From Cafeteria roenbergensis (Eukaryota; Sar; Bigyra; Bicosoecida; Cafeteriaceae), in contig VLTN01000067.1 of the NCBI GenBank assembly GCA_008330645.1, positions 1-64,000 of the forward strand: a stretch of DNA of 64,000 bases, given 5' to 3'. The notes below the pieces were generated by a model. The model ran no database searches, was not told the origin of the DNA, and saw only the letters and a list, made by a program, of their open reading frames with translations. A program made the position numbers and the translations under genes. Positions within the stretch are counted from its first letter, which is position 1, and the number at the start of each line of letters is the position of its first letter. Of the stretch, positions 3,001-58,779 are shown one piece after another.

Positions 3001-6000
3001 GAAGCAAGGGCGTGCAGCAGTTCCTCCAAGACGCCCCCACCGATGCCGTGCTCGTGGGGGCTGTGCAGTCGCCATTCATTGGCGAGCTTGACGCCGCGAC
3101 CAAAGAGGCCCTGTCGGGCAGCTTTGGCGTGACTGTGCCGCAGACCTTTAGCATGGGGACCTCGTGGGCGTTCTTCGGGCTCAAGAACGCTCCACCGTCT
3201 TCGATGCCATCCGCCCACTCGCGCACCGGGGCAGTGAACCTGACATCGATCATGGAGTGCATGGTGCAGTCGCTCAGCATGGTCACGCCGGAGAACCTTG
3301 GAGCTACGGGTGTGACGGTTGGCTTGCCGCTGGCGTTGCAGCCTCAGGCGCAGTCGTTTGGCTTCCTCATGACGCGAGAGTCGCGGTGCGGGAACACGAC
3401 GTCTGCCGCGTTCGACGTTGCCACGTCAACGGGGTCCGTTGTGCTGGTCAACCCTGCGTCCCTGAATGCAGCGAGCTGCGACACGCATCGCCTCTTCGCC
3501 GGGTCGTTCTCGAAGCGCTTTGCCACGGCCTGGCGCGCGATGCGAGCCAACGGCAACTCCGCCGAGACGCTGTGGGAGTTCGATCACGGTCTGACGGCCG
3601 ACCCTGCTGACCTCGAGGTGTTTGCGGAGATGCGGTGCAAGTCGTCCAACAACGCTGGCTTTGTTTTCCAGCCCTCGTCATCGGTGCCCTCGACCGACTA
3701 CCCCCAGGTGTACAGCTCTGGGACGTACAATCTGCCATTTGGCGGCTTCACGTCCTGGTGGAGCTCCTCACAGGTGCGAACAATGGTGAGCGCGCCCAAC
3801 TGGATGTCGACATCGACGTCGTACGACACCCGCCGACCGACCGCATGCTACATTCCTCCCCACTACGGCGGCGGCATCAACGTGATGCCAGCCGACAACA
3901 GCGCGGAGGTGCGCGTTCGCATCGACAAGCTAAGCAACTCTCCCAGCTATGACTCGGGCTGGAGCGCCATGATGGCTCGCAACACCGCTGACTCGTACCG
4001 GGTGTTCGCCCACGGCCTTGGCAAGCTGCCTGATCGCCTTCGCGTGCTCATCCGCTCGGAGGAGACCAGTACGTGGGCGAGGGAGATGCACTCGCAATGC
4101 GACCGAGTCGCGTTGACGACTGACAACAACCCAAATTATGCTGGCGGTTGCGTGTACGCCTTTGACGAGGTCAACGTGTACGTATGGCTGCCAGTTCGCA
4201 ACGACGATGGCTCGAACATGTATGCCATGGCAGCGTATGCCTGGGGAAGCAACCAACGGAACGTGCTCATCTCGTCCGTGAGCGTCCGCGTGCAAGGCTG
4301 GGCCTCCGTGCGGCATGCCGACTACGAGTCAGATTGGCTGCGGATGGTGTCCGGCGATCCCAGCTCATCGCTCTCTTACCGCGAGGTGAATCACGGGCTG
4401 GCGGCGCTTCCGGAGCGTGTGGACGTTGCGGTTCGCTCCAGCAGTGCGAGCGCGCCAGGGGGCTACATCCACTTCGGGTCTGTGGGCATGTACGCCGGCG
4501 GAGGAGCTGACGACGCAGGCATCACATCGGCGTTCAACGAGGAGCAGGTGCGGATGTGGACCTCAACCAAGCTGGGCCGCGCCGCCTTTGTCAAGGACGG
4601 CTGGGGTGCAGAACAGAACACGTTCGAGTCTGCCACAGTGGACGTGAAGGTCCGCGCTTGGCGCATCAACTACGAGGCTGAGCATTCCGTGGGCATCGTT
4701 GACATGAAGATTCAGGACGTGAACTCGCCGCCCATCGCTCCGCCTCTCCGGCTCGCAGTCGTGGAGGACGCAGAGCAAGGCACCGTGATCGGGTCGTACA
4801 CCGGCAGCGACCCGGACGCTCTTGCGTTCTTGACCTACCGCATCATCGGCGGCAATGCCGATGAGACCTTCGCGGTGAACCCGGTCACGGGCCAGGTGTC
4901 CGTACCCAGGCCGTCCATGCTCAACTACGGCCGCCACCGGCGCTACCTCTTGCTCATTGAGGTGTCTGACGGTGCGCTTGTGGACACCGGGGTTCTCACC
5001 ATTGACGTGGAGAACCGCAACTCGGCTCCCAAGCTCTTCAGCAGCGAGTTCGAAGTCTACGAGAGCTCCCCGTACGGTACCCCTATCGGAGACGGCATGG
5101 TGGCCGAGGACAGGGACGAGGGAGACACGTTGCTCTTCGCCATTGTGGACGGCAACATTGGCAACGCTTTCCGAATTGGAGGCTGCTCTGGCGAGCTGAG
5201 TGTGAACGAGCCGGTGATGTTCGACTACGAGGCAAGGCAGGCCATTTTGCTCACGATTGGCGTCACCGATGATGGCCAGCCGCCGCTGAACGACACTGCG
5301 CTTGCTCTGGTGCACATCCTGGACGTGAACGAGGCGCCCGTGTGCTCGGTCGGAATGGAGAGGTCGATACTCGAGAACGAGGCTGCCGGCTCCCCGGCAG
5401 GCCAGCCACTGACCGCCTCGGATCCCGAGAAGCAGAGCCTTCGCTGGACGATCGAGTTCGGGGACGAGTCGGGTGTGGTGTACATCGACGCTGCTGGCTA
5501 CATCCGCGTGCAGGAGACGTCCAAGGTGGCGATCCCAGGCTCGACCATCAACTTCGAGGCGAGGAAGTCTTATCAGCTAGGTGTGCGCGCAACGGACGAC
5601 GGCGTGCCGCCGCTGTCGTGCACCACAACTGTGACGCTTACCATCAAGGACAGCAACGACGCTCCGACCAAGCCGGCCACGCCGCCCGTCCTGTTTATCC
5701 AGGAGAACAGCGACCCCGGCGTGATCGTTGCCCGCTTCCCCCTCGTGGACGAGGACACCATTGCCGCGGGGTCCAACGATTCTGTCACGCTCAGCATCGT
5801 GCCCGGCAGTCCAGGCTACGACGAGCTCACCATGGCGCACGACCCACGCACCCAGGAGGCTGTGATCCGCGCCACTTCGGTGAACCTTGACTTCGAGGCC
5901 TCCCCGTCGTTCATCGTGCAGTACACGGCCACCGACGCTGGCGGGAACGCTCGGGGCCCCCCCAGGGGCTTCACGGCCAACTTTACCGTGCAGCTGATCA

Positions 6001-15872: not shown

Positions 15873-16473
15873 TTGGCATCCCCACGTCTTCCCATCTTTG
15901 GTGGTGCCTCGTGACATCACACCCGGCCTCGAGAGAGCGGCTTGCTCCTGAGCTCTCGAGGCAACGGCGTCCCCAACTCGTTGCCTTGGATTGATCGACT
16001 CGTTTGAAGTTCGTTCGCGCATTTGCGCATTTCTGTTACCAGCGTTATGTCGTGCCACTTTGCTGCAACTGGCGTCCGTTCTCCCTGGTGGGAGACGCGT
16101 TCTTGCCTGCAGTGGCTGGCTTGCTGCTGCGTCAGCGAGATGCTGACGCGGTGCGGTGCTTTCAAGCCCGCTTTCGCTCCGACCAGAGTCTGGCTCCTAT
16201 TTTCGGCTCGTATTCATATAGGAGGAGCCCGATTGCGTGCACTGGCCTGCCTGCGCAGTCTTGTGCTCTCGATGAAGAGGCGCATGGTCTGTCGCACTTC
16301 GCGCCACCTGTGGTGGCGGGTGTGGCCATGTTTCCAATCCAGAGCTCCCCTCAACGCAGTCACGAGCTGCCGCCACGTTTTCCGCACCTGGGCCACACAC
16401 TCTCGTCGCAGTCCCTGCGTTGGCGAGGCTGCGGCCAACACAGTTTTTAGCTGAATGATGCGAGACAGAAGCG
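15873..16473. other. Intergenic: 3' flank of the giant gene
   Basis: About 600 bases between the stop of the giant gene and the terminator of the tRNA. Short open frames exist but none shows a domain, a clear start context or the GTGAG/GCAG splice signals used elsewhere. I see nothing else in it. Confidence 0.5.
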
Positions 16474-16478
16474 AAAAA
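16474..16478 (-). terminator. Pol III terminator of tRNA-Thr
   Basis: On the minus strand a run of five T begins about eight bases after the tRNA discriminator base. This is the usual RNA polymerase III stop signal and supports a nuclear, transcribed tRNA gene. Confidence 0.8.
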
Positions 16479-16485
16479 GGAAGCG

Positions 16486-16557
16486 TGCCTCAACCAGGGA
16501 TCGAACCTGAGACCTCGACATTACTAGTGTCGCGCTCTACCACTGAGCTATTAAGGC
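16486..16557 (-). tRNA. tRNA-Thr (anticodon AGT)
   Basis: The 72-base cloverleaf folds fully: acceptor GCCTTAA pairs with TTGAGGC (one T-G wobble), discriminator A. The D-arm contains GCTCAGTGGTAGAGC, which is also the A box. The anticodon stem CGACA/TGTCG closes the loop CTAGTAA, giving anticodon AGT for Thr codon ACU (wobble inosine expected). The variable loop is five bases and the T-arm TCAGG-TTCGATC-CCTGG is a canonical B box. There is no intron and no encoded CCA. It is alone in a gene-poor stretch. Confidence 0.95.
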
Positions 16558-19500
16558 TGGCACGAGCGAGTGCGTCGAAAAGTACATATACATTTGATAG
16601 TGGATTTTCCCCAGTGAGGCCTTTGCCAATCAAGCCTGCTGTTGCTTTTCAGCAGAACTTGCTTTCTTATTGAGTTTTTGCGTACCTGTGTCAATATGTC
16701 TCCCAGCTTGCGGAAGGCCTCAGCATTTTGGCCATGTTTCGGCTGAGCCGTGCACACTTTACGCGACAATGTATGGAGGATAAGACCGTCGATTTCCCCG
16801 CCTCTTTGGCCTGCGCTGCACTGTCCAACAGTACCGAAATGCTCGTGATGTGCACGCCAGCCTCGAGCACATCGCCGCTGCCGATTGCTTGTGAGCCAAG
16901 GTACAAGAGTTCGGGCATCGCCACTCCCGGTTCCTCGCTGGTCATGCTCGAGGCAGGTCAGAGGCAAAGACGTTGAAATTGCCCGGGGCTCGCTTTAGTT
17001 TGTGCGCAACCAACAGCAGCAGGAGCGATTGAGCACGTTCACAGTCGCACGAGTCGCTTGCGGGCTTCATTGACGAGAGTGTAGCCCACGTGGCATTGCT
17101 TAGCAAGCCATTGTAGCCTGCGAGGCATTTTGCACAGAGAAGCGCAGTCGCCATGGCAAGCACTGCGTGTTGCCTAGCGTGCATCATTTCAGATCTGGCT
17201 GTGGAACACGTGGGCCCTGGCACCGAGGCTGGCTGGGCCGCATCCAGAACCCTGCAACTGCCCGCCCCAACGCGAGGCGTCAAGCACCCGCCGGCACTAC
17301 CAGGGCGAGGTAACAATGAGCCCCAGCTGGCAATTCTCCGCCCCGCGCGGCGAGGAACCAGTTGAGAAGGGCGGCCCGAAGATTGCCTCGTCACTGAACA
17401 TGGATCTGAGTCACAATCCGGGACATTCAAGGTGAGTCGGAGTGGCCCGGTGGTTGTGGCCTCACAGATGGGAAGCAGGTTGTCCAGGGGAGCGCGAGAA
17501 CGGCCGTTGTGTTTTCCAGAGGGGCTGATCGGCCGTTCCAAACAGGCTAGACGCGGACCACGAGATTGCAGGGATTGCTCGGTTGAATGCGCGAGCCGCA
17601 TAAAATCGCGTAGTTTGAGAAAAATGTGGTCTCGAGGGCGCACAGCCGGAAGAGGAGATTCTATCGGAAAGCTGGAGGGCAACAGGCAATCGTTTTGTGT
17701 CTTTCCTCGCAAGCCGCGACGGCGGGGGGAGGATTCATCTCGCGATGGTCACCGACCCCGGCAGTGCCAGGATAACGCTCGAAGGCGAGAGGCAGACACT
17801 ACTGGCAAGCGGAACTTCCCGTCTTGAGGGCCCCTGGTCTGATCCCCCCCCCCTTCCCTCTTCTCTCGCACAATCAAACTGAAGGGGGACCCTCTGTGCA
17901 CGGCTTGGACGGGAGCCCCTCAAGGTTGACGACGTGGAAAGCAAAACAACCTGTTGAAACTTGGCACTTGAGCGGTTGGACACGACGATGCGGTTCATCA
18001 TGGCTGGTGGAAGCTGGGCAGCGTGATGCACAAGGCCAAGTCCGGAAGTACCAGCTAAACTGCAATGCCGCCCAAACGACCAACCAAACCAGAGGGTTAG
18101 CTGAACAAACTTTCGGCTGACACTGGAGCAAAGCACTATCAAACAGTGCCACAGCCGGAGTGGAAACAACAGAGGAAGCACAGCAAGCAGAAGCGCTCGT
18201 GAACAAAGAGTGTGCAAGGTTTCCAATGTCCAAGCCGACCTCACAAGTGCCTGTCAAACCAGGCTAAACTGATTCTTATTGTACAAGCATTGGAAGTGTC
18301 AAATTTTCTGCAAGTACTGATATTTCCGCTGTCGGCACTGGCATGCGGGTTCATGGCTGAGCGGTTGCCTGCGGGTGTGGAAAACGCCTGCAAAGGTTGC
18401 CAGTGATTGCAGAACAACGTGGTTCGCGGAGAGACATTTGCAATATCTTGCATTGAAATCTCCTTGTTCCGGACGCAATCAAGTTGCGACGGTTGTGATT
18501 GTCAGCCACTGATATCGCAATCACCGCGCGAGCACCACCCTGAACTTTTGTAGTCTGCTTGCAAACTCAGCGCTTAGACAGCAGATGGTGGTTGGCTGCA
18601 TGTCGCACAGTCGCACTGAAAGGACCCGTCATACTCTCCAGCACCAAGCACATGGTGAACTCAGTCCTGATTTTCACAGCCTGTCGAAGTTGAAACCAGT
18701 TTCCCAGCCCCAATCAGTACGCCCATGAACTAGCAATGTCTGAATTTCTCGAAGACACACGCGATCGGATCATCAAGGCCGATAGTTTGATTTTGCGAAG
18801 CCCGGCCAGTCAGCTGTGTTGCACGACGCATCACAAGTTTTGCAACCATGCATCCAGGTGGCCGCGCAACATGGATGCCTCGTACACCTAGCTTCAGACG
18901 ACACGCTGTCATCGGTGCAATCCGTACAGTTTCTGTTGCAACGCGCTGTTGCGACTCCTTGTATTAGCCGATTCTGCTTTTTGAGCAGCACCATGTTCGT
19001 GATGCGGATTGATTCATTATTTTTTGCATGTCTCATTGTTGCTTTCGTTGGTTTGGCTTCGCTCTTTTTGAGCGCGGTTTTGACAATTGTTTTCCCGCTG
19101 CCTCTTCTAGTTGGCCTCCCACGCCCCAGATTGCTCACATTGTTGAAAAGTTTCGGACAACTATTCCCTTGCGATGATGTTCGAGAGTGGCGGCAGCGTT
19201 GTTGCCATTTTGGACGTGGCGAAGCCAATGTGTTCTTGTTTGCAGCGCATTTTTGATCCTCTGTTTTACGTTGCTTTACCAGTTTCCTCCGTGTATAACA
19301 GCTCCGGCTTCCGCGCGATGCTATGGATGCTTCACGCCGGCTTGGCAGTACTTTGACGCTTGATGCTTGTCTACTCCGACGAGCGACTTGGTTGATTGGT
19401 GTGCTTCAACTTTTTGGAGCTCTGTTGGCTTGTCGATGCTTCGCATGCGTTTGTCGCGGTGCTGCAAGTTTGTGGTGCCGTCAGGTCTCGCGAATGTGGC

Positions 19501-19872
19501 CGGAGACTTGCTCGCTTCTGACAGTTGCTGGCACGCACCCTTGTTGTGCGTCTGGTTGCTTTCCGGCCCTCTGGGCTCCAGGCCCAACTTAGCTCTTTGG
19601 TCGTGCCCTTTGGTCAACTGCTCCAATCTATGAGCAGACTGTTTTACAGGACCACTTTCAGCTTGTCAGACAAGTCACTGGCTTGAACCGACATGGGTTC
19701 GTGTTGCTGCCTGGTGCTTGTTGGCTGCCTTATTCTGCTTCCAGAAGCGGGTGCCCAGTGTGGGCGGGAGCGATTCTTGCGCTCACCGAGACGTTGTTCA
19801 CTCAGCACAACCTGGCGAAGCTGACACACATTCCCTGGTTGCCTGGCATGTGATGCTTGGCGATCAGCAGGC
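16558..19872. other. Gene-poor stretch of lower GC
   Basis: About 3.3 kb without a recognisable gene. Base use is visibly poorer in G and C than the flanks, most clearly at 18200-19700, where the plus strand is T-rich. Open frames here are short and lack domains. One weak two-exon candidate (17316-17827) is described under findings. There is a C10 run at 17844-17853. I see no transposon ends, long repeats or further RNA genes. Confidence 0.55.
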
Positions 19873-20622
19873 TCATGCTGTCTTGGTTGCAGGTTTACTT
19901 GCCCCGAATGGGTTGTCTTGAACTGCCATTCGCACCGCTGCAGCGAGCGGAACGAAGAACCAAGGGGCGTTGAGGGCGCTTACCAGCACCGGGAACGCGG
20001 TGGAGGTCGAGCCATCGAGCTCCTCCATCATGATGACGAAGACATTGGTCATGATGACACAAGCCCACGCCACGGTGGGCAGGCGGGCGGCCTTGTTGCC
20101 CACCCAGTAAGCCCAGACGGCCCAGGCGTAGAACGGGCCGAACAAGAGGCTGTCGCTCCAGATTGTGGCGCGCCACCATGCCGCCCGGGCAATGAGCGGG
20201 GGATCAAAGTTGCAGCCGTACCAGCGGATGATGTCGACGGCTTGCGATGGTGGCCACGCGGGGTAAGTCGGCCATGCGCCAAAGACTGTCGCGCCTCCGG
20301 CGCCCCACGGGACAACCTCGCGCAGAGCTTCGCAGCGCGTTCCGTCTGCGGCTGGTGGCAAGCGCGGGGTGGGGGGGGGTGGCTGTTGGGGGCGGGCGGG
20401 CCTGCGCGGCAAGCTTGTGGTTGCGCAAGGGTCGACTCCGCACTCAAGGCCGCCCTAGCGGCCCGCACCGCCCTCACCTGGGTCCGGGTTCGCTGGCGCA
20501 GTAATCTGCTCAATGTCGACCACATAGGTGATGACGAAGAAATTCAGCAGGAAGAAGCCGATGAGCGCCAAGTCAAACGGCCGAGCCCAGATTGGCAGAG
20601 GCCGGGGAGCGCGAGCAGCCAT
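19873..20622 (-). CDS. EXPERA-domain membrane protein (EBP/TMEM97-like)
   Basis: Two exons, 20478-20622 and 19873-20345, joined by a phase-1 intron (GTGAGG...GCAG), give 205 residues. Four hydrophobic helices are visible: residues 15-34 (after the motif RPFDLALIGFF), then around IWSDSLLFGPFYAWAVWAY, WACVIMTNVFVIMMEEL and NAPWFFVPLAAAVRM. The FDPPL, W-D, FGPFY and NAPW positions match the EXPERA family, which includes emopamil-binding protein (sterol isomerase) and TMEM97 (sterol/NPC1-linked, endoplasmic reticulum). An acidic EE pair lies in the third helix. Whether it is an enzyme or a sterol-binding protein cannot be told. It is divergent from the MAEA homologue with 226 bp between starts. 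Confidence 0.85.
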
Positions 20623-52664: not shown

Positions 52665-55229
52665 ATGGCTGCAGCAACGGAGAGCGCGCCGGCCCCCGGG
52701 CTCCTTGACGGCTTGCCGCTCCTTGACAGCTACTCCCGGAACCAGCTCTCTGGCTTCAAGCTCAGGTCGCGGACCCCGCTTTCGCCGAGCGACCAGCCCA
52801 CGCTTCGGCACATCTACCTTCGCGAGGCGCCAGGGGGGACCCTTCCCAGGAGCAAGGACAAGGCAATTGCAAGGATCCTGGAGCTGCAGGTAGCGCGGCT
52901 TGCACGCGCCAGCGCAGGCGCGGAAGCCTCCGACAGCGACGAACCGGCCCTCGGTAGCGACGCTGATGAGGCACACGACAGCCTTGACGCGGAGGCTCGT
53001 GCGGCTTCGCGGCTCTTGGCTGCCGAAGCTGGCGCAGCGTCGGGCGCGGGTGCGGCAACGCCGCCGAAAACGCCCCCTAGGACCTCCAGTGCAAGCCCCG
53101 CGCCATGCTCGAGTCCGTCGGCACTAGCCTCGCCGTGCGATGCCGTCGTTGCCACCGTGCTTGGGGCGGACCTCAAGGGTCTGCGGACCATGGCCAGGGA
53201 GCTCAAGCTCAAATTTCTCGACACATCGCGCTCCGCTGAGCTTCGAGAGGTCGTGCTGCTGGGCAAGGCTGGCTTCGTGTGGGACGCGGTGGCCAAGGTT
53301 TCCCCCGGAATCCGCAGCCCGTACGTGGCCTTCGGCGACGGCGTTGAGCTGGGCGTGCTGGTGAAGATTGGCGGCCCCACTCCCAAGCAGCTGCTGCACG
53401 CCGAGATCGCCCTCATGCTGGCGGACCCTGGCACCAGCGCGGACGGGGGATCGGGCACCCGCGGTCGTGCCAAGGGGACCAAGAACACAGCCACGCGCAT
53501 CAGGGACTGCATCGTGCGCCTGCTCGCGCGATTGGTCGCCAGAAGAGACGGAAAGGCGCCGCCTGGAGGCACGCGCGACGGATCAGGGACGCCCGCCGGC
53601 GGGGTGAGGCCACGAGATGCCATCGTGTCTCCTTGGAGCGCTGCGCCGACGCTGCGCAGGCAGCTGAGCCGCGGCTGTCTCGATCGCGTGCCTCCCGCTG
53701 CCACCGCGGAGTCGCCCCGAGCTGGGAAAACTGTGAGGGTGGGGTCGTGGAACCTCCGGCGGTTCAGCTGCTCCTCGCTGTCAATGCGAGACATGAGCGA
53801 CATGGTCGAGAGGCTCTGGCGATTCGACGTTGTTGTGCTGCTCGAGGTATTTTCGGGCCCCCATGGCTCGGCGAGGGACGCGGTGAGCCAGCTGTGCAAA
53901 CAGCTCGACGACAGGACGGGTGAAGCCGGGGCGTGGGGATTCATTTTGTCCCCTGAAGCCGGGGCAGCGCCATCCGAAGCCGGCGCAGCGGCAGCGACAA
54001 GGAGCGGCGCAGCCGGCGGGGAGCGGGCCGCAATGATCTGGCGCCGAAGCAGCGCGGTGTGTACGTCCGTCGAACCGGGGACTGAGGATGAAGGCGGGCA
54101 CTGCATCAGCTTCGAGGAGAGCGGAGCCTACCAGCCCGCCTTCAAGTACTTCGCTCGGCCCCCAATGGTCGCGTCTTTCCGTTGTGGCGAGCTAGACTTC
54201 GTGGTAGTCGGCTACCACGCTGTGTGGCACCAAAAGTCGGGATGGAAGCTTCGGGGTGACGCCGCGCGCGAGGTGGAGTTTAAGAACCTTGCGGTGGCTG
54301 TGAGCAGCCTCCGACAGCAGATGGGCGAGGTTGCGGCAGAGTTGGAGGAATCTGACCCCGAGCAGGCCAAGTGCCTCAAGTGGGCGCCGATCCTGGTGTG
54401 CGGCGACTTCAACGCCGAGCTCCTTAATTCGTCTCAACACGCGCTGTTCAACCCGCTTATCCACGTTGGCGGGGAGTGCTTGCACTCCACTGGGGAGCCG
54501 ACTGTCATTGCCACGGAAGAAGCCAAGGCCAGCGCCTTTGACATGATCTGGATGTTCCCGGCCCTCGCCACCCTGGAGGCCACCCATCGCATGCTCGAAG
54601 CGACGCAAGCTGAAGAGGAGGCTGAAGAGGAGGCTGGAGCGGACAGGGAAGCGACGGCCGGCGAATCACAGGCGGAGCTCGACTTGGACGCCGCCTTGCC
54701 AGAGGCGCCAGCAGGGGACGCTGACGGGGATGCTGTCATGGTCGAGGTCGCAAGCTACGGCATTGACGATATCATGGGCAGAATTCGCGGCAATCTGACG
54801 AACGAAGGGGAGCTGCCTGAGTCCGGCGCGCCTTCGTTTTCGGTCTCGCCGAAGCCGGAAGCGCTCAAGGCGGTGGGCGATGCCATGGCCTTGCTGGGCA
54901 TTCCGTTTGCATCAGCAGTAGCACAGGACCCGGAGCTGCAGGCTAAGGCGCTCGTCAGCTTCGCCAGAAGCATGGTCTCAAAGTCGCTCTCCGACCACTG
55001 CGCAGTGTGGGTAGAGCTGCTTCCGACGCATATGCCCGTCGGAACGGAATCACAGATCGCAGGCCGGCTTGACTCGGCTATTGAGCGCTGCACCGCGGCT
55101 GCAGGCGTCGCGACGAAAGTCAAGCCTCGTCTCACGAAGCTGCCAATTGCCCAGGTCGGAGCCAGGGTCAGCGGAGGGTTTGATGCGGATGACAAGGAGC
55201 GCTTTGTGAGCGGGAGCATGTTCGCTTAG
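52665..55229 (+). CDS. EEP-fold (endonuclease/exonuclease/phosphatase) protein
   Basis: One exon, 854 residues from the ATG after the MCM10 stop. The C-terminal half (residue about 355 on) has all landmarks of the DNase I/exonuclease III fold: VGSWNLRRF, FDVVVLLEVF with the catalytic Glu, VVGYHAVW with the His, ILVCGDFNAE (about 579), FDMIWMF and the terminal SDHCAVWVEL (about 775). Nuclease activity is therefore plausible; the substrate is unknown, as the family also includes phosphatases. An Ala/Glu-rich insert sits before the last motif. The N-terminal half contains an Ala-rich stretch and an ordered module of unknown family (about 170-250, KGLRTMARELKLKFLDTSR to GVLVKIGGPTPKQLLHAEIA). No signal peptide is seen. 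Confidence 0.8.
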   Translation: MAAATESAPAPGLLDGLPLLDSYSRNQLSGFKLRSRTPLSPSDQPTLRHIYLREAPGGTLPRSKDKAIARILELQVARLARASAGAEASDSDEPALGSDADEAHDSLDAEARAASRLLAAEAGAASGAGAATPPKTPPRTSSASPAPCSSPSALASPCDAVVATVLGADLKGLRTMARELKLKFLDTSRSAELREVVLLGKAGFVWDAVAKVSPGIRSPYVAFGDGVELGVLVKIGGPTPKQLLHAEIALMLADPGTSADGGSGTRGRAKGTKNTATRIRDCIVRLLARLVARRDGKAPPGGTRDGSGTPAGGVRPRDAIVSPWSAAPTLRRQLSRGCLDRVPPAATAESPRAGKTVRVGSWNLRRFSCSSLSMRDMSDMVERLWRFDVVVLLEVFSGPHGSARDAVSQLCKQLDDRTGEAGAWGFILSPEAGAAPSEAGAAAATRSGAAGGERAAMIWRRSSAVCTSVEPGTEDEGGHCISFEESGAYQPAFKYFARPPMVASFRCGELDFVVVGYHAVWHQKSGWKLRGDAAREVEFKNLAVAVSSLRQQMGEVAAELEESDPEQAKCLKWAPILVCGDFNAELLNSSQHALFNPLIHVGGECLHSTGEPTVIATEEAKASAFDMIWMFPALATLEATHRMLEATQAEEEAEEEAGADREATAGESQAELDLDAALPEAPAGDADGDAVMVEVASYGIDDIMGRIRGNLTNEGELPESGAPSFSVSPKPEALKAVGDAMALLGIPFASAVAQDPELQAKALVSFARSMVSKSLSDHCAVWVELLPTHMPVGTESQIAGRLDSAIERCTAAAGVATKVKPRLTKLPIAQVGARVSGGFDADDKERFVSGSMFA

Positions 55230-55727
55230 CTTGCGCGGCAGCTTTGCGTTTGCTCATGCGCGCAGTGGAGCCGAGTGCTTGAGTCTGCCATGCCTCTGCC
55301 CAACAGTAGGGACTGCATTTCGCCGGCAAAGCTGAGAGCCTCACAGGCAACGCAGACCCGACCACCGCATAACATGATGACACGACAACGCTGACCCCAG
55401 CGGCTTGCAGTCACAGCTGGGGCGCTCGAGGTCCAGGCAGCAGGAGCAGAAGAGACGGAAGGGTGGCTTGCACGCATTGCAAACGCCTGCCGCTTGTCCC
55501 GTTCTGTCCCGCGCCCGAGAAGCTCCGAGACGGGTTGTGCCTCAGGCAGCAACGGCGCCCCGAATTGGGCGTTTCCCGTTGCTACCGTCACAGGCAGTCT
55601 TGTCGCGAGGCTAGCTCGGTGCGCCGTCCGCAGCTCGCCGAGCCAGCCGCTCTGGCACCATTACACCTCGCACTGCCCCCCCCCCCACACTCCCCACACA
55701 CCTTCCTTGCAGCGGCAAGGCACGGGT

Positions 55728-55746
55728 GGGGGGGGGGGGGGGGGGG
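55728..55746 (+). repeat. G19 homopolymer
   Basis: Nineteen G in a row in the TrxR/EEP 3' region, 41 bases after a C11 run on the same strand. The exact length may be unreliable, since such runs are hard to sequence. Confidence 0.9.
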
Positions 55747-55877
55747 ATCACGTGCAAATGGCGGCGGTGCACACAGCGGCATGACTCAGCCTGAGCGGAC
55801 GGCGCCCAGCAAGCCCCGCGGAATCCGAGGATTCACACGATTGCGGCGGAACTGCAACCAAGCCAATGAAACGGGCC

Positions 55878-55911
55878 GCATCAGCACACGGGGCGGGTGC
55901 AAGCTGGTCAC
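55878..55911 (-). promoter_or_regulatory. Weak SECIS candidate for TrxR
   Basis: On the minus strand, about 370 bases after the predicted Sec codon, GTGAC and GATGC flank a hairpin (CAGC/GCTG and CAC/GTG pairs) with a C-rich loop. The arrangement recalls the SECIS quartet (UGA opposite GAU) and the CC variant of the apical motif. The stem is short and bulged, and the usual AUGA and apical AA are missing. It is the best match I found by eye, not a firm call. Confidence 0.18.
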
Positions 55912-56270
55912 GCGCCGGAGCTGGGCCGCACGGTGCGTGGCAGCTCCAATCCTGACAAGAATTGGAGTCACCACGTGTGCAGCTCAGACCGCAGCGCGCT
56001 CGCGAGCACCCGTCGTGCCGTGCGGGCCCTACCGCAAGTGGCCGCATCGCGACCTTGGAAGAGGATTGACCGGCGCCAGCAATGGCGCCGCACCAACGCC
56101 CTCCGGTCCGCTGAGGGGAAGTCGGGCAACCAGGATTGCCCTCGGGCGCGCGCACAGGGCGGCGAGCGAGACCTGAGTTCACCCAGCCAATGTGTCATGG
56201 CCTGGCGAGTCAGTCAGCTGCTCTCCGCGCCGCGCGCGCGCTCTTTCCCCTCAGACGAGAGCCGGAGGGC

Positions 56271-58779
56271 CTAACCTCAGCAGGATCCCTTCTCGATGGG
56301 GGCCCCCGAACTGCGGGAGACCTCCAACGAGGTGAGCTCCTCCGCCACGGTGGGGTGGATTCCCACAGTGTCGCGCAGGGCCGTGAATGTGAGGCCCATG
56401 CGCATGGCGGCAGCGAAGCCCTGGGTCACCTCGCCCGCGTTGGGGCCGAGGTAGTGCAAGCCGACGACGCGGTCGTCGCGAAGGTCGACGATGACCTTGG
56501 CAAAGGCGGACTCCTCGTGGCGGTAGTAGTTGAGGGACCACTCGAGCGGCTTGTACTTGGAGAGGAAGGCATCCACGTTCTCGGCGCCCAGCTGCTCCTC
56601 GGCGGCCTCCTCTGAGAGGCCGATGGTGCCGTACTCGAGCGGCGTGAAGACCGTCGTGGCCACGCAGCGGTAGTCAAAGCCGGCCGTGGAGCCGGCGAAG
56701 AGGCGGCGCGCGAGGGAGCGGCCGGCCTGGATGGCCACGGGGGTGAGCTCCGGCTTGCCTGCGACGACGTCGCCGATGGCGAAGATGTGAGGCACGCTGG
56801 ACTGCTCCTCCGTGCACACAATCTTCCCGGAGCGGTTCGTGGTCACGCCGGCGTCCGCGAGGCCCAGCGAGGAGGTGTCCGCGTCGCGGCCGATGGCGCA
56901 GAAGACGGTGTCGAAGTCAGCTGACGCCTCCTTGCCGTCTTCGTCCTTCCAGGTGACGGACTTGCGGCCGGAGGTCGCGGTTGCGGCTTCAGCGGCCGAG
57001 GACGAAGAGGAGGCCGCGCCCTCGATCTTGACGGGGGTGCAGTGCGGAAGGATCGTGACGCCGCGGCGCACGAGGTCCTTCTCGATGAGCACCACGCACT
57101 CGCGGTCGAAGCCGCGGAGCAGGATGGAGCGCACCATGAGGGTGACCTTGAAGCCCAGGCCGGCCAGGAAGCCGGCCGTCTCCAGGGCGATGTAGCCGCC
57201 GCCGATGATCAGGGTCTCTCCCGGCGCGTTGGAGAGCTGGAACACGTCGTCGGAGGAGATGGCCAGCTCGGCGCCGGGGCAGGACAGGGCGCGGGGACGG
57301 CCGCCCACGGCCACGACGATGCGCTTTGCGGTCACGGTGGAGGTCTTGCCCTGCTTGTCGCGCAGGCTGACCTCGTGCGGGGTGCCTGTGAGCGATGCCA
57401 GGGCGTTCCTGTAGGTGACGGAGTAGTCGCGGAGCTCGCCCTTGTACCCGAAGTTGAGGCCCGCGATGTGGTCCTGCACGTTGCCGACGAGCTTGGACCA
57501 GCGGATGCCCAGGGTCGGAGCCTTTGGCTCGCCCTCCGCAGCCGCTGCCGCGGCGGCCGACGCCTCGGAGCCCCATCCGAAGAACGGGAGGTCCTTGGCC
57601 TCCTCGGCCAGCAAGGCGGAGCGGTGCATCAGCTTCTTGGGGATGCAGCCCACGTTGACGCACGTGCCGCCGAGGCCCCAGCGGGTGCCGGCCGGGGAGG
57701 GCTTGACGAAGTCACAGAGGCAGACGTTGGCGCCGAGCTTGGAGGCCTCCTTGGCGCAGGCGAGGCCGCCGGAGCCGCCGCCGATGACGAGCAGGTCGTA
57801 GTCGAAGTGCGCGCCGGCCGCGTCGGCGGAAGCCGAGGCCGTGTGGGTCACCTGGGGCTGGTGCAGCGCGCCGCCGCCGCCGATGCGGCCGCGGATGAAC
57901 GCCACAACGGCATCGGCATCTCCAAAGGCCACGGCCGCTCCGTCGGTTCCCTCAGCCTCGCGCGCCACGGCAACGCACTGGGAGCCCGCGGTGGGGGCGC
58001 CCGCGTCGCCGATGTCCTGCGCCGCGCGAGCCAGGGAGGACAAAAGCGCAACAGAGAGCTCGCCCGATGGCGAGCAGCAGCCCTGAGGCACAGCAGCAAC
58101 GGCTTGGCTTCGCCACGGAGCGGGTGGCGCGAGATTTCCGGGGCAGCGGAGCCAGGAGCGCGGCTTGGGCGGGGCGGGAATGAAGGGCTCACCTTGGTGG
58201 CATCGGCCCACCAGGCCGTCACCGCCGCGCCGTCCGCAAGCGCCTCAACAGTTGGGTCCGCGAAGGAAGTGCTGTCGAGGATGGCCGCGCCAGCAGCCGC
58301 TTTGCTGGCCAGCTCAAGCCCGGCGTCTGCGAACGATTCGAATCTCAGAGAACGAGCCGAGGTCAGGTGACCGACCCCTCTGACCCCAGAGGGGAGCAGC
58401 TGCGGCTGCCACGTCGCAGCAAGCTCGGGCTTTCGCCGCTCCGGCGCCAAGCGGCAAGGCTGGGGCCTTGCGCGAGCGCGCGCTGCCGTCTGCGTAGGCT
58501 GCTCGCTCGCTCACCTGCCGCCACGCCGGCGATGAGCAGCTGGACCTTGCCCGTCAGCCCACGGGCCTTGGGGGCGGCCTCCGGCTTGGCCGGCTCAGGG
58601 GGCGCGGTCGACACTACATCGCCCATGCCGAAGCCCTCGAAGCGCACAGGGGCAGACGTGGCCGCAGCGCCCGAGTCGGAGACATCCAGGCCCGGCATGA
58701 CGCTGGTGGTGGCGGGTGCCATGCTAAAGGACACCTGGCTGCCGCCCCCGCCGCCAATGTCGAAGCGGATGGGATCCAT
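56271..58779 (-). CDS. Thioredoxin reductase, predicted selenoprotein
   Basis: Exons 58515-58779, 58193-58326 and 56271-58016 (GTGAGC...GCAG twice; phases 1 and 0) give 714 residues if TGA at 56277-56279 is read as selenocysteine. The end is then Gly-Ser-Cys-Sec-Gly, followed at once by TAG, the layout of the Cys-Sec-Gly tail of large thioredoxin reductases. The core is the FAD/NADPH disulfide reductase: DLLVIGGGSGGLACAKEA, GLGGTCVNVGCIPKKLMH with the redox CVNVGC, GGGYIALETAGFLAGLG for NADPH, CAIGRD, and the dimer-interface HPTVAEE that forms the His-Glu pair. A Ser/Ala head and a thioredoxin-like module without CxxC precede it. It reduces thioredoxin using NADPH; cytosolic or mitochondrial location is open. 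Confidence 0.92.

Follow-up and report, generated by a model that had tools for sequence, protein, structure and literature searches.

Animal thioredoxin reductases of the large type terminate in the motif Gly-Cys-Sec-Gly. In the gene of rat TrxR1, the selenocysteine (Sec) codon TGA is followed by a Gly codon and a stop, and a SECIS element is located in the 3' UTR. Outside the animals, a survey of 36 algal genomes (PMC7539508) reports a Sec-type TXNRD in more than half of the genomes and ranks it among the four most widespread algal selenoproteins. The present analysis concerns a 64,000-nt stretch of genomic DNA (the window) from Cafeteria roenbergensis, a heterotrophic flagellate of the Stramenopiles (Bigyra, Bicosoecida). 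Sequenced strains of this species are named C. burkhardae in a later paper (PMC8547959). For strain BVI, the genome report gives a GC content of 70.1% (PMC6972860); when the window is divided into 16 blocks of 4 kb, 15 of these have a GC between 61 and 74%. GC drops to 55% at positions 16001–20000, a block that carries a tRNA-Thr (16557–16485). Endogenous virophage-like elements of Cafeteria are described as low-GC stretches in PMC8547959.

On the minus strand of the window, a gene for a thioredoxin reductase (hereafter TrxR1) is predicted with the following features:

58515–58779, minus strand: putative exon 1, N-terminal extension (ATG start, open frame, GT donor at 58514)
58193–58326, minus strand: putative exon 2, N-terminal extension (flanking AG acceptor and GT donor, phase matching exons 1 and 3)
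56271–58016, minus strand: exon 3, encoding the large thioredoxin reductase domain and ending with Sec codon, Gly and stop (matches to TIGR01438, rat TrxR1 and Pfam)
56277–56279, minus strand: TGA, predicted Sec codon (after the conserved last Cys; TGA at the equivalent place in a paralogue)
56271–56276, minus strand: GGT (Gly) and TAG, the true stop (read from the sequence; GGA TAG in the paralogue)
55529–55599, minus strand: predicted SECIS element in the 3' UTR (GTGAC core, 11-bp helix II, unpaired GAAA, helix III, CTGAG)

If the three exons are joined at these splice sites, which were chosen from the sequence, the reading frame remains open and would encode a protein of 714 residues (Sec and Gly counted) of about 73 kDa. 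The thioredoxin reductase frame (ORF 58211–56277, minus strand) is uninterrupted until the TGA. In frame with it, positions 56285–56271 of the minus strand read TCC TGC TGA GGT TAG, corresponding to Ser-Cys-(TGA)-Gly-stop. The first-pass annotation had described TGC TGA GGT TAG after the last Cys codon and Ser instead of Gly before this Cys; both are present as described, the Ser in TrxR1 and its paralogue alike.

The exon 3 product matches the Pfam families Pyr_redox_2 and Pyr_redox_dim and reaches 557.9 bits with NCBIfam TIGR01438 (TGR subfamily, cut-off 475.85). Its best match in a phmmer search of PDB chains is rat TrxR1 (E 7.6e-147), with an alignment covering query residues 132–644. Within this alignment, GGTCVNVGCIPKK contains the N-terminal redox site CVNVGC and is aligned with rat TrxR1. 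At the opposite end, the final Cys of the ORF (Cys644) is aligned with Cys497, the residue preceding the Sec position of the rat enzyme; we take the aligned PDB chain to be the rat protein, in which Sec498 and Gly499 presumably follow. Large (high-Mr) Sec thioredoxin reductases combine glutathione-reductase-like FAD, NADPH and dimerisation domains with a C-terminal Cys-TGA-Gly-stop, and both characteristics are found here, the latter in TrxR1 as well as in the paralogue. The motif GCUG with Gly before Cys is replaced in both paralogues, which carry Ser. This exchange was treated as affecting a variant and not a defining position, since the Cys-Sec pair forms the redox site of large thioredoxin reductases.

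The TGA could alternatively be an ordinary stop, in which case the enzyme would end in Gly-Ser-Cys and the trailing Gly codon and TAG would be due to chance or be relics of an ancestral Sec form. Counted over both strands of the window and irrespective of reading frame, TGA is followed by GGN at 117 of 1259 TGA triplets and by GGN plus a stop at 6 (0.5%, TrxR1 site included), and these six occurrences speak for an ordinary stop. Among the 54 Cys-TGA pairs of the window, one continues as Gly-stop, namely the TrxR1 site itself. The 12-mer TGCTGAGGTTAG occurs at two sites in the genome. Its other copy, on contig C18, was rejected as a reductase end because the preceding frame lacks any likeness to reductases; the string alone proves nothing, and it is the position that counts. 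Judged from the sequences, the recurrence of the ending in the paralogue is a stronger argument against chance than the counts in the window. That a stop, a Gly codon and a second stop would hardly coincide at this very place by chance, as had been suggested initially, is borne out by the counts for Cys-TGA and TGA and by the same ending in a diverged gene.

The paralogue, a second gene for a Sec-type thioredoxin reductase, is located on contig C27 in at least three matched pieces (L020, positions 4071–4079 and upstream). It ends in Ser-Ser-Cys-TGA-GGA-TAG and shares 47% identity with TrxR1 in the main match and 46% in the last exon. Conservation beyond the TGA, which the first-pass annotation had proposed to seek in relatives, was examined in this within-genome paralogue, where Gly codon and stop are kept; retention of Cys-TGA-Gly-stop despite 47% identity argues against an ordinary stop. 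Downstream of the ending, positions 4164–4252 of L020 can be folded into a SECIS-like structure with a GUGAC/GA loop, a broken helix II, an unpaired GCAA and a helix III. This element is weakly better than its shuffled versions (z -1.5, 19 of 200 shuffles as stable), and Rfam gave no SECIS_1 match downstream of the paralogue. As a separate observation, a T-arm-like string, GGGTTCGAACCCC, is found 15 nt after the TAG of the paralogue, at which ARAGORN detects no tRNA.

Downstream of TrxR1, a cmscan search of region 54900–56700 detected the Rfam family RF00031 (SECIS_1) at 55599–55529 of the minus strand with 26.9 bits and an E value of 0.014 (counted across 4227 Rfam families), the match spanning model positions 1–64 of 64. 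It is situated within the region 55230–56270 of the minus strand, in which a SECIS search had been recommended by the first-pass annotation. The score is below the gathering score of 35, which counts in favour of an ordinary stop; this value is a curated database threshold and not a structural feature. With a minimum free energy of -42.4 kcal/mol (z -3.9), the stretch is more stable than all of its shuffled versions (0 of 200 as stable). The predicted fold consists of helix I, an internal loop of GUGAC opposite UG(A), the 11-bp helix II, the unpaired GAAA and helix III. The structural hallmarks of a SECIS element, a UGA/GA core, helix II and unpaired AA on the 5' side, are all present, and the distance between Sec codon and SECIS core amounts to 689 nt. 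Such a fold downstream of TrxR1 speaks against an ordinary stop. An inverted pair of a C-run and a G-run at 55674–55760, likewise in the 3' UTR, attracts numerous weak hits in Rfam, most of them to families of microRNAs.

Pattern scans were compared with a background comprising both strands of loci from the same genome, counted in strand-bases. The strict pattern yielded one match for TrxR1, the only one in its 1.5 kb, and none for the paralogue, SPS2 or the background (72,010). A looser single-hairpin pattern matched twice in 2.5 kb of TrxR1, the SECIS candidate being the better match, and neither in the paralogue nor in SPS2; its ten background matches in 72,010 include three of lower energy than the TrxR1 element. 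The loosest scan produced 503 background matches in 72,010, a few of them lower in energy than the TrxR1 element, and carries no weight on its own. A structure descriptor, composed after inspection of both TrxR folds, gave one match for TrxR1 (the only one in its 1.5 kb), two for the paralogue (one multi-branched and discounted) and none for SPS2 and GPx. In the background, it matched twice in 85,012, once as a multi-branched fold and once as a single, much interrupted stem, and for this reason the paralogue element taken alone would be a chance event of a few per cent. A genome-wide search with RF00031 gave no match at E values up to 10. Since this search also missed the SECIS candidate of TrxR1 itself, it provides no evidence of absence.

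Of the components for Sec decoding, tRNA-Sec, SepSecS, eEFSec and SPS2 are all found in the genome. The tRNA-Sec on contig C25 scores 71.3 bits with RF01852 (gathering score 47) and is typed by ARAGORN as tRNA-SeC with anticodon tca. SepSecS is encoded on C20 in two stretches, with an ORF scoring 377.3 bits. The eEFSec on C5 displays the Pfam domains eEFSec_4th and euk_SelB_III; its best solved match is 5IZK, annotated as 'Selenocysteine-specific elongation factor' (E 5.1e-84) and presumably the human protein. A selenophosphate synthetase on C19 contains an in-frame TGA directly before GCKVSQEK, a position which we take to be the Sec site of SPS2. These genes agree with the earlier proposal that the organism possesses Sec machinery. 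The absence of tRNA-Sec or EFSec, named at that stage as evidence to the contrary, was checked in the genome, and both are present. A genome that encodes tRNA-Sec, SepSecS and eEFSec argues against an ordinary stop at the TGA of TrxR1.

For PSTK, TIGR03575 gave no match in the genome. A KTI12-like P-loop protein (C4, C157) marginally resembles an L-seryl-tRNA(Sec) kinase of solved structure (E 0.21), which ranks fifth behind spastin and another AAA protein, and the sequence may be regarded as a weak PSTK candidate. The two copies of this P-loop protein region (L032, C157:9581, and L033, C4:323157) differ at 646 of 3471 positions without realignment; lying on the small contig C157 and the large contig C4, they are possibly alleles left in the assembly. 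Six L7Ae-domain matches were judged by eye to be of ribosomal, NHP2 or 15.5K type, and none of them was recognised as SBP2.

In addition to SPS2, a glutathione peroxidase gene on C52 carries a TGA within ANTATY-TGA-GLTVSNYEGLNSL, presumably at the Sec site of GPx. The presence of TGA at known Sec sites in these two genes further argues against an ordinary stop in TrxR1. However, no SECIS element was found for either of them, which again favours an ordinary stop: Rfam detected no SECIS_1 across about 1.3 kb downstream of SPS2 and GPx or in a 141-base stretch of SPS2, and the structure descriptor found none within 1.5 kb. Their elements either depart from the common form, lie elsewhere or were missed. 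A hand-picked stem-loop of SPS2 was dropped as a SECIS candidate, as its fold is not that of a SECIS and 191 of 200 shuffles were as stable (z +1.45). The selenophosphate synthetase (L009 on C19, minus strand) carries a long Ala-rich tail. An open frame, in which RNase H-like motifs were recognised by eye, starts no more than about 0.7 kb beyond the stop of this gene and limits the room for the 3' UTR of SPS2. A search for Rdx proteins (SelT/SelW) gave two matches. The better one, a SelT-like protein on C66, is a Cys form, since it contains CSSC; the second was taken as spurious, as no gene was recognisable.

In conclusion, with a probability of roughly 95%, TrxR1 is a nuclear gene that encodes a large, animal-type thioredoxin reductase with a penultimate selenocysteine and the C-terminus Ser-Cys-Sec-Gly. 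The original reading of the TGA as Sec, giving Cys-Sec-Gly-stop, is supported at the sequence level by the aligned Cys, the SECIS candidate, the machinery genes and the ending of the paralogue. On balance, an ordinary stop appears very improbable. Decoding of TGA as a standard sense codon, or selenium-free read-through by a code change or general leakiness, can be practically dismissed, as its sole point is that the frame extends by one codon, whereas the tRNA with anticodon TCA is identified as tRNA-SeC by both ARAGORN and RF01852, the TGAs are situated at Sec positions of these genes and the SPS2 frame itself terminates at TGA.

For the Sec-containing enzyme, read-through and splicing are predicted from the gene, and the catalytic cycle is derived from knowledge of mammalian TrxR. 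The SECIS element in the 3' UTR would bring eEFSec, loaded with Sec-tRNA[Sec], to the UGA at 56279–56277, where the ribosome would insert Sec, add the following Gly and terminate at TAG. In the folded enzyme, electrons would pass from NADPH via FAD to the disulfide of the N-terminal CVNVGC site and then to the C-terminal Cys-Sec pair, which in turn would reduce thioredoxin. If the TGA is taken as a stop, the thioredoxin reductases appear two residues short and lack the catalytic Sec.

The N-terminal extension of TrxR1 (window 58779–58193 and the start of exon 3) comprises about 200 Ala/Gly-rich residues. With the spliced N-terminus, Pfam returned no family at E values up to 10, a glutaredoxin domain included, and its 13 matches in a PDB search are all antibody fragments or linkers. 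A CxxC motif is absent from its sequence. The extension may be a decayed thioredoxin-like fold. A more specific reading, which we consider unlikely, is that of two diverged Sec TrxRs, both with Ser-Cys-Sec-Gly and a GUGAC-type SECIS with helix III, and one of them with a decayed thioredoxin/glutaredoxin N-terminal domain. If true, heterotrophic stramenopiles would possess a novel TGR-like domain architecture.

In the open-licence literature, no publication was found on selenocysteine in bicosoecids or on a Ser-Cys-Sec-Gly ending, and titles retrieved for Cafeteria and selenoprotein concern only diet, nutrition, health or the Aureococcus giant virus; with this restriction, the search does not show the gene to be unpublished.

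Comparison with known systems reveals that TrxR1 shares with mammalian TrxR1 (rat, 3EAN/1H6V) the FAD/NADPH/dimerisation chain, the CVNVGC site and the aligned last Cys. Unlike the rat enzyme, the flagellate protein carries the N-terminal extension of about 200 residues and two Ala/Ser-rich insertions, and its ending Ser-Cys-Sec-Gly differs from the Gly-Cys-Sec-Gly of animals. With TGR (e.g. 2X8C), it shares a TIGR01438 score above cut-off, and the phmmer alignment with the TGR chain begins at its residue 76. However, in contrast to TGR, the extension contains neither a detectable glutaredoxin domain nor CxxC. The surveyed Sec-type TXNRD belongs to algae, whereas the present host is a non-photosynthetic bicosoecid, and bicosoecids are absent from the groups listed by that survey (section 5; PMC7539508). 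Since the Sec-type enzyme is already widely reported in algae, a Sec TrxR in the flagellate is to be expected. The differences from the known type are small and comprise the replacement of Gly by Ser ahead of Cys-Sec, seen in both paralogues, and the N-terminal extension, in which no domain was detected. The genes indicate that a bicosoecid flagellate decodes selenocysteine, which extends the known distribution of selenoproteins by a heterotrophic stramenopile and leaves ideas of the mechanism unchanged.
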